A stretch of 64,000 nt of DNA, taken from contig JAOFXR010000003.1 of assembly GCA_028047635.1 (NCBI GenBank), forward strand, positions 1 to 64,000, given 5' to 3'. Positions 21,530 through 23,434 of this stretch are shown here, in pieces. Source of the DNA: Verrucomicrobiales bacterium. GTDB taxonomy: Bacteria > Verrucomicrobiota > Verrucomicrobiia > Verrucomicrobiales > DEV007. Below the pieces are notes generated by a model. It was not told the origin of the DNA, did no database searches, and saw nothing but the letters and a program-made list of their open reading frames with translations. Positions within the stretch are counted from its first letter, which is position 1, and each line of letters starts with the position of its first letter. Made by a program: the position numbers and the translations under genes.

Positions 21530-23434
21530 ATGTCGAGCTACAAGACCTCCGCGATCCACACCGATAAAATGCCTCCGGGCATCCCTTACATCATCGGAAA
21601 CGAGGCGGCAGAGCGTTTCAGTTTCTACGGGATGCGCACCATCCTCACCATTTTCATGGTGAACTATCTCTGGCTCATGGGAGACAAAGCCGGAACGCAG
21701 ATGGCGGATACAGAAGCCACAGAACGCTTCCACCATTTTGTCTCACTCGTCTATCTCACGCCGGTATTGGGCGCCCTCTTAGCAGATCTCTTCTTCGGGA
21801 AATACCGTGTCATTATGACTCTGTCAGTCGTCTACTGCCTCGGCCACTTAGCGCTCGCCCTCATGGGAATGACAGGTGAAGCGAGCACGTGGCTCATGGC
21901 CGGACTGTGGCTGATTGCGGTGGGGTCAGGAGGCATCAAACCCTGCGTTTCCGCTCATGTCGGCGATCAATTCGGCAACAAGAACCGGAACCTCCTCCCC
22001 CGCATTTTCAACTGGTTTTACTGGTCGATCAATCTCGGCGCATTCCTATCCACACTTCTCACCCCATGGTTACTTGAATGGTATGGACCACATCTCGCGT
22101 TTGGTATTCCCGGCGTTCTCATGGCTCTTGCCACCCTTGTTTTCTGGACAGGCCGTCACAAGTTCGTGCACATCCCGCCCGGCGGAAAAAAGTTCCAACG
22201 CGAACTGCTTAGCAAAGAAGGAATCGGCGCGATTCTCAAACTCGCGGCAATTTACATTTTTGTCGCCATCTTCTGGGCACTTTTTGACCAAAGTGGCTCC
22301 TCGTGGGTTCTTCAGGCCGAAAACATGAACCGCAACTGGCTCGGGGTGGAATGGCTCCCAAGTCAAATCCAGGCTCTCAACCCCATTTTCATCCTCATTT
22401 TCATTCCGCTGTTTTCCTATGTGATCTACCCGCTCGTTGATCGCGTTTTCACACTGACCCCACTCCGTAAAATCGGCATCGGGTTTTTTATCATGGTGAT
22501 TTCCTTCGCCTTGGTTTCGATCGCTCAGATGAAAATTGATGCAGGAGAGGCCCCTTCCATTTCATGGCAACTCTTCGCCTACGTTGCTCTCACCGCCTCT
22601 GAAGTGATGGTGTCCATCGTTTGTCTGGAGTTCTCCTATACGCAGGCTCCGAAAGCAATGAAGTCAGTGATCATGGCTCTTTTTCTTTTTGCGGTCTCAT
22701 TAGGCAATCAGGTCACTGCCCAGATCAATCATTTCATTCAGGTCAAAGATCCCACCACGGTGCTGTCCGGCACGGATACCGAAATTTCGCACGGTGGCTT
22801 TGATGGAAAAACCGGCACCTCAGACGACCTCGTCGTTACCTTTGATAAAGACGGCGCTCGAACCAGTATCGCTTTCGACGGGAAGAGTGCCCTCGAGGAA
22901 CTCGTTTCAAAAGTCTCAACGACCGTCGCTGAACAAAATCATACGGTCCTGTCAGAAGCAAAAGCAGCCGAAATCCTCGCCGGAGCGAAGGATCCCTGGG
23001 GCAATCCCTATCAGTTCACGCTGCTGGACCAGTCTCGCATGCGTATCGTCAGCACAGGCGCAGATAAAAAGGATCTCACACAATGGGACCAGGGAGCCAT
23101 TATCTCAGTATCGGTTCCTTCTGAGAGCAAGCCTTCCGCCTTTACTGCTTTCATGGATAACTTCCGCCCTGAAGAAGCTTGGCTCGAAGTGAGAAAAAAG
23201 GAACTCGGTATCCCCACGAAAGCAGAAGCAGCCGCTGAAGGCCCCGTCATCTCGACCGACTACTTTGTCGGCGGGCGCGTCCGGCTTGAAGGTGCCAACT
23301 ACTTCTGGTTCTTTACAGGCCTCATGCTTGTCGCATCACTCGCCTTCATGATTGTAGCCAAGCTGTATCGCCCCCGGGAATATTATCATGATGACCACGA
23401 AGCGGAGGTGAACAGCGAAGCGACCGCGCACTAA
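21530..23434 (+). CDS. POT/PTR-family peptide:proton symporter with a large inserted extracytoplasmic domain
   Basis: A 634-residue inner-membrane transporter of the major facilitator superfamily that imports di- and tripeptides with protons. The PTR2 hallmark ExxERFSFYGMR is at residues 25-36, followed by about 12 helices; GSGGIKPCVSAHVGDQF (132-148) and FYWSINLGAF (163-172) are family motifs. Between the last two helices, about residues 403-575, is a soluble insert expected to face the periplasm. It contains KDPWGNPYQF (487-496) and STGADKK (508-514), the signature pattern of the C-terminal part of type II secretion pseudopilin GspG. The gene ends 4 bases into the convergent sialidase gene. 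Confidence 0.9.
   Translation: MSSYKTSAIHTDKMPPGIPYIIGNEAAERFSFYGMRTILTIFMVNYLWLMGDKAGTQMADTEATERFHHFVSLVYLTPVLGALLADLFFGKYRVIMTLSVVYCLGHLALALMGMTGEASTWLMAGLWLIAVGSGGIKPCVSAHVGDQFGNKNRNLLPRIFNWFYWSINLGAFLSTLLTPWLLEWYGPHLAFGIPGVLMALATLVFWTGRHKFVHIPPGGKKFQRELLSKEGIGAILKLAAIYIFVAIFWALFDQSGSSWVLQAENMNRNWLGVEWLPSQIQALNPIFILIFIPLFSYVIYPLVDRVFTLTPLRKIGIGFFIMVISFALVSIAQMKIDAGEAPSISWQLFAYVALTASEVMVSIVCLEFSYTQAPKAMKSVIMALFLFAVSLGNQVTAQINHFIQVKDPTTVLSGTDTEISHGGFDGKTGTSDDLVVTFDKDGARTSIAFDGKSALEELVSKVSTTVAEQNHTVLSEAKAAEILAGAKDPWGNPYQFTLLDQSRMRIVSTGADKKDLTQWDQGAIISVSVPSESKPSAFTAFMDNFRPEEAWLEVRKKELGIPTKAEAAAEGPVISTDYFVGGRVRLEGANYFWFFTGLMLVASLAFMIVAKLYRPREYYHDDHEAEVNSEATAH

Follow-up and report, generated by a model that had tools for sequence, protein, structure and literature searches.

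A GspG-like insert in a peptide transporter gene

The window, a stretch of 64,000 nucleotides from a Verrucomicrobiales bacterium (GCA_028047635.1, contig JAOFXR010000003.1, positions 1 to 64,000), carries a gene for a peptide transporter of the POT/PTR2 family with a long insert near its C-terminal end. The gene and its parts are as follows.

21530..23434, forward strand: gene for a POT/PTR2 peptide:H+ symporter of 634 amino acids, with 12 predicted transmembrane (TM) helices and without HA-HB between TM6 and TM7
22739..23296, forward strand: GspG/pilin-like periplasmic insert, residues ~404–589 (~186 residues), in the TM11–TM12 loop, from profile matches and AlphaFold models
22793..22831, forward strand: GGFDGKTGTSDDL, residues 422–434, the N-terminal insert motif GxDGxxGTxDD, from conservation in 66 inserts
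22883..22933, forward strand: helix, residues 452–468, from AlphaFold model 1 (H50–66, pLDDT about 87) and model 2 (pLDDT about 90)
22988..23017, forward strand: KDPWGNPYQF, residues 487–496, the GspG hallmark, from profile and PDB alignment and insert conservation
23051..23089, forward strand: STGADKKDLTQWD, residues 508–520, counterpart of the GspG beta2–beta3 calcium loop, from alignment with PulG and insert conservation
23303..23359, forward strand: TM12, residues 592–610, from hydropathy and alignment with TM12 of insert-less POTs; the chain then re-enters the cytoplasm

The transporter itself is a clear member of its family, scoring 288.6 bits against PF00854 (cut-off 27) and 173.1 bits against TIGR00924 (cut-off 130.2), and among solved structures PepTSo (2xut, E 1.4e-94) is nearest to it. 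The ExxERF motif of TM1 is present as E25-A-A-E28-R29-F, and aligns with PepTSo, as do the TM4 lysine (K137) and the TM10 glutamate (E367) with the PepTSo core. Presumably E25, E28, R29, K137, and E367 have the coupling roles known for POTs, and judging from sequence the protein would be a proton-coupled di- and tripeptide importer. Genes that resemble CdsA, Dxr, and ROK by inspection lie upstream.

Hydropathy shows 12 peaks, which we read as 12 TM helices, and gives the loops that distinguish this protein. In PepTSo, about 80 residues that form HA-HB separate the two bundles, whereas the TM6–TM7 loop of the window POT has only 26, so the HA-HB helix pair of solved bacterial POTs is absent. 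The TM9–TM10 loop has 14 residues. The loop between TM11 (residues 379–397) and TM12, in contrast to the short one in PepTSo, has 194, and the insert begins in it, after TM11, with IQVKDP. Members of the major facilitator superfamily usually have their N and C termini inside, and because this topology places both termini in the cytoplasm, the TM11–TM12 loop is assigned to the periplasm. The earlier note on this DNA had placed a GspG-like domain in this loop at about residues 403–575, on the basis of KDPWGNPYQF and STGADKK. KDPWGNPYQF and STGADKKDLTQWD are indeed found there, and the location holds, but the insert is slightly longer than was proposed and ends near residue 589.

Relationship of the insert to GspG

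Taken alone, the window insert is a borderline match to PF08334 (T2SSG), at 21.1 bits against a curated gathering cut-off of 21 (E=3.3e-4), and the full 634-residue protein scores 17.2 bits and falls below that cut-off. The match covers residues 485–519, and in the single-sequence alignment spans only model positions 65–100 of 108. Similarly, a single insert searched with phmmer against the PDB ranked GspG first, at E values (0.42–0.68) that are not significant alone. The HMM search proposed in the earlier note thus gave a score just above the cut-off, and a weak match over 36 model positions could in principle be a chance occurrence of DPWGNPY within an unrelated, lineage-specific domain.

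Given this marginal single-sequence match, we built an insert family, and a profile was made from an alignment of 35 homologous inserts, 30 of which match T2SSG at E<=1. Searched against the PDB, this profile found eight chains at E<=0.1, all of them GspG. Against a profile of 16 GspG proteins from related genomes, hhalign gave a probability of 97.9 and E=2.6e-12, whereas 20 column-shuffled controls gave E values of 0.0039–0.65 and a reversed-profile control gave 0.064. Of the 12 best non-POT matches of the insert profile in 30 genomes searched in six frames, nine were also PF08334 matches. The relationship of the insert to GspG is shown by these computations, and a chance motif was ruled out by the PDB search and the hhalign tests.

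Predicted structures are consistent with this, at a modest level. AlphaFold2 models were made of the window insert (model 1, from four sequences, mean pLDDT 66.7) and of a homologue's insert (model 2, mean pLDDT 79.7). Both contain strands, two helices, three further strands around the DPWG motif and the calcium loop, and some short helices at the C-terminal end. The first of the two helices is positioned like pilin alpha-1, and helix 452–468 would correspond to the C-terminal half of that element. With VIA-align, the best matches of model 1 were PilE (4noa, Z 6.8) and EpsG (3gn9, Z 6.3), and those of model 2 were the K122-4 pilin (1qve, Z 6.1) and calcium-bound PulG (5o2y, Z 5.8, rmsd 3.0 over 85 residues). 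The top two matches of each model are therefore pilins or GspG, at modest Z scores of 5.8–6.8 (<8), with rmsd of 3.0–4.0 over 85–98 aligned residues; neither model had a significant match in a Foldseek search of the PDB. The structure prediction suggested in the earlier note sided with pilins or GspG in its best matches and fell short in their significance. While the Foldseek result would favor an unrelated domain, the pilin matches of two models and the register of the calcium loop, together with the profile evidence, make such a domain extremely improbable.

The conserved positions of the insert follow the GspG pattern. In KDPWGNPYQF, D488 is kept in 66/66 inserts, W490 in 61/66, and G491 in 63/66, and in STGADKKDLTQWD the corresponding counts are 64/66 for S508, 66/66 for G510, 63/66 for D512, 59/66 for T517, and 63/66 for D520. 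Overall, D488, G510, D512, W519, D520, and W551 are near-invariant across the 66 insert-bearing proteins. As in GspG, PulG, and EpsG, DPWGNPY and S-x-G-x-D...D occur in register, and in the predicted models a helix is followed by antiparallel strands. Beyond GspG, the insert has additional C-terminal helices in these models and an additional N-terminal segment, GxDGxxGTxDD, in which D425 (60/66), T430 (57/66), D432 (61/66), and D433 (63/66) are kept. This segment (GGFDGKTGTSDDL in the window) is similar to the GspG calcium loop, as if that loop were present twice, and its conservation is nearly as high. Some members (L065, L066, L121) have a shrunken insert or have lost the N-terminal motif.

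The segment S-x-G-P-D-x7-D-x-G of the insert aligns without gaps to PulG SLGPDGVPESNDDIG, with D512 and D520 spaced as in PulG. These two residues are putative calcium ligands, judging from the alignment and from the ligands of PulG and EpsG. The calcium site of PulG lies in the region of the beta1–beta2 and beta2–beta3 loops (PMC6692295). By this correspondence, the insert is probably stabilized by Ca2+ in the same loop as GspG.

The insert is not a pseudopilin

While related to GspG, the insert is embedded in a transporter and differs from GspG in its missing N-terminal parts. No prepilin motif (GFTLxE) and no N-terminal half of alpha-1 were seen in the 35 aligned inserts, and the whole-protein GspG model TIGR01710 scored 15.1 bits against a cut-off of 88.85. 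Neither linkage to type II secretion (T2SS) genes nor a recurring partner family beside the POT was found among 17 loci. Gene order around these loci is conserved solely among close relatives, and no operon partner emerged from them.

Other proteins of these bacteria carry related modules. Two lipoprotein-like proteins of 609 and 612 amino acids (L106, 2289–4118, and L107, 1762–3600, both on the reverse strand) end in a strongly matching T2SSG domain (E 1e-20 to 1e-21) and have no prepilin N-terminus, and each adjoins a paralogue without the GspG motif. In addition, five proteins of 180–330 amino acids (L160, L161, L162, L163, and L164), again without a prepilin motif, have a C-terminus related to the insert profile, of the form D-x-W-x-TP-[YF]-x-F ... 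S-A-G-[PA]-D-K ... T-x-DD, and are absent from the PF08334 matches at E 1e-3. They may form a hitherto undescribed family of proteins, soluble or single-pass, whose C-terminal part is GspG-like. With such modules in non-pilin proteins, the domain is evidently used outside filaments in these bacteria.

The insert is thus not a pseudopilin, since it lacks the prepilin signal, has no linked T2SS gene, and has counterparts in other non-pilin proteins; nor is it a pilus subunit, since it has neither that signal nor the N-terminal part of alpha-1, which drives filament assembly. The same evidence weakens the suggestion of the earlier note that the insert anchors the transporter to an envelope machine. 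A tether to a T2SS pseudopilus or to the machinery of a type IV pilus would fit the homology of the insert to the major pseudopilin, and PF08334 matches above cut-off do occur in 38/40 sampled genomes of the family, in a few of them (e.g., G054) as the POT insert alone. However, the filament contacts are made by the very alpha-1 segment that the insert lacks, and with the unlinked T2SS genes and the non-pilin modules we consider such a tether very unlikely. In the window's own assembly, PF08334 matches at E<=1 nowhere but in this insert; as that assembly is 63% complete, a true GspG gene may lie in the missing part.

Distribution and evolution of the insert

Within the window's family, matches to the transporter were found in 62/75 genomes. 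Insert-bearing POTs comprise 66 proteins, of which 54 belong to this family and the other 12 to a sister family within its order. In a tree built from 435 alignment columns of the transporter, with the insert left out (quick search, midpoint root), all 66 are on one side of one branch (SH-aLRT 99), which requires one change. The insert therefore has a single origin on this tree, and its insertion point is shown by computation: POTs from this order and class that lack the insert have 51–59% identity over the transporter core, and those relatives inspected have ~12 amino acids at the TM11–TM12 site. Along with the profile evidence, the tree and these relatives bear out the claim that a GspG-like domain was inserted into a POT periplasmic loop. 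An assembly artefact or chimera was ruled out by the presence of the fusion in 66 proteins of separate genomes.

The earlier note had also raised the question of the same insert in other PVC genomes. A PVC-wide trait was not seen; at E<=1e-9 in a sample of 387 genomes of the phylum, matches to the insert profile were confined to two families of one order. All were in frames of 591–724 amino acids, except for a split POT gene in one genome (G317). A contig profile scan found three Verrucomicrobiales POTs and ten partial matches in other bacteria (nine in Proteobacteria and one in Armatimonadetes), the latter ten presumably GspG-type genes.

The insert is under purifying selection, and is constrained less than the transporter core: in 11 close pairs, dN/dS was 0.09–0.26 in the insert vs. 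0.03–0.13 in the rest of the protein. It also evolves much faster, and compared with one homologue (L005) has 46% identity where the transporter core has 82%. Its speed of change, the unconserved neighborhood of the POT, and the 12-residue loop of insert-less relatives could reflect a passive spacer or stabilizer of the TM11–TM12 connection, without a partner, fixed by drift and kept since its removal would misfold the loop. We regard this as unlikely, as the hallmark residues are near-invariant in 66 proteins, dN/dS is well below 1, and the persistence of a folded domain in two families points to more than a spacer.

Possible roles of the insert

We propose that a POT ancestor within one order of Verrucomicrobiota would have gained a GspG-type globular part once, in the TM11–TM12 loop. 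The domain would be suspended there from the C-terminal bundle of helices, next to the transporter's outer mouth. Calcium bound in the loop equivalent to that of GspG would stabilize the domain. The insert would then most likely be a periplasmic accessory or docking surface that recruits, for example, a periplasmic peptidase or an envelope protein. On balance, we favor with moderate confidence a peptide importer bearing a once-gained, probably Ca2+-stabilized GspG-like accessory or docking domain, in which transport activity, calcium binding, docking, and partner are all inferred. The docking role is drawn by analogy, because the analysis turned up neither a partner (by binding or operon) nor a conserved neighbor.

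The earlier note suggested that the insert could capture peptides, and its position beside the outer mouth would fit a domain that captures or pre-binds peptides and feeds them to the transporter. This seems quite unlikely: GspG is a structural subunit and not a peptide receptor, and we saw neither a groove nor a receptor motif in the insert. In mammalian PepT1 and PepT2, moreover, removal of the extracellular domain (ECD) left uptake unaffected, and direct accumulation of peptides was judged unlikely (PMC4597091).

The analogy behind the docking role comes from these same transporters, which have an Ig-like ECD between TM9 and TM10 (PMC8565842) that binds trypsin and is dispensable for transport (PMC4597091). 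PepT1 and PepT2 (SLC15A1/A2) are like the window POT in having a 12-TM core without HA-HB, and in carrying a folded insert in one of the extracellular loops of their C-terminal bundle. However, their insert consists of two Ig-like domains between TM9 and TM10, whereas that of the window POT is pilin/GspG-like and lies between TM11 and TM12. A peptidase recruited by the bacterial docking domain would release peptides beside the importer, as has been proposed for the Ig-like ECD. More tentatively, and with considerable doubt, bacteria may have independently evolved a docking-domain peptide transporter, in which a calcium-bound pilin fold would concentrate a peptidase or envelope partner as a counterpart to the PepT1/PepT2–trypsin pairing.

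Bacterial POTs have been described as being without the soluble extracellular domain of mammalian PepT1 and PepT2 (PMC4597091, PMC8565842), and we found no description of a POT–GspG-like fusion in the literature searched. The Verrucomicrobiota POT family is an exception to this stated absence. Its insert-bearing members arose independently in evolution, with another fold in another loop, and so offer a comparison for the function of the mammalian ECD; they also show the globular domain of GspG reused outside secretion filaments.
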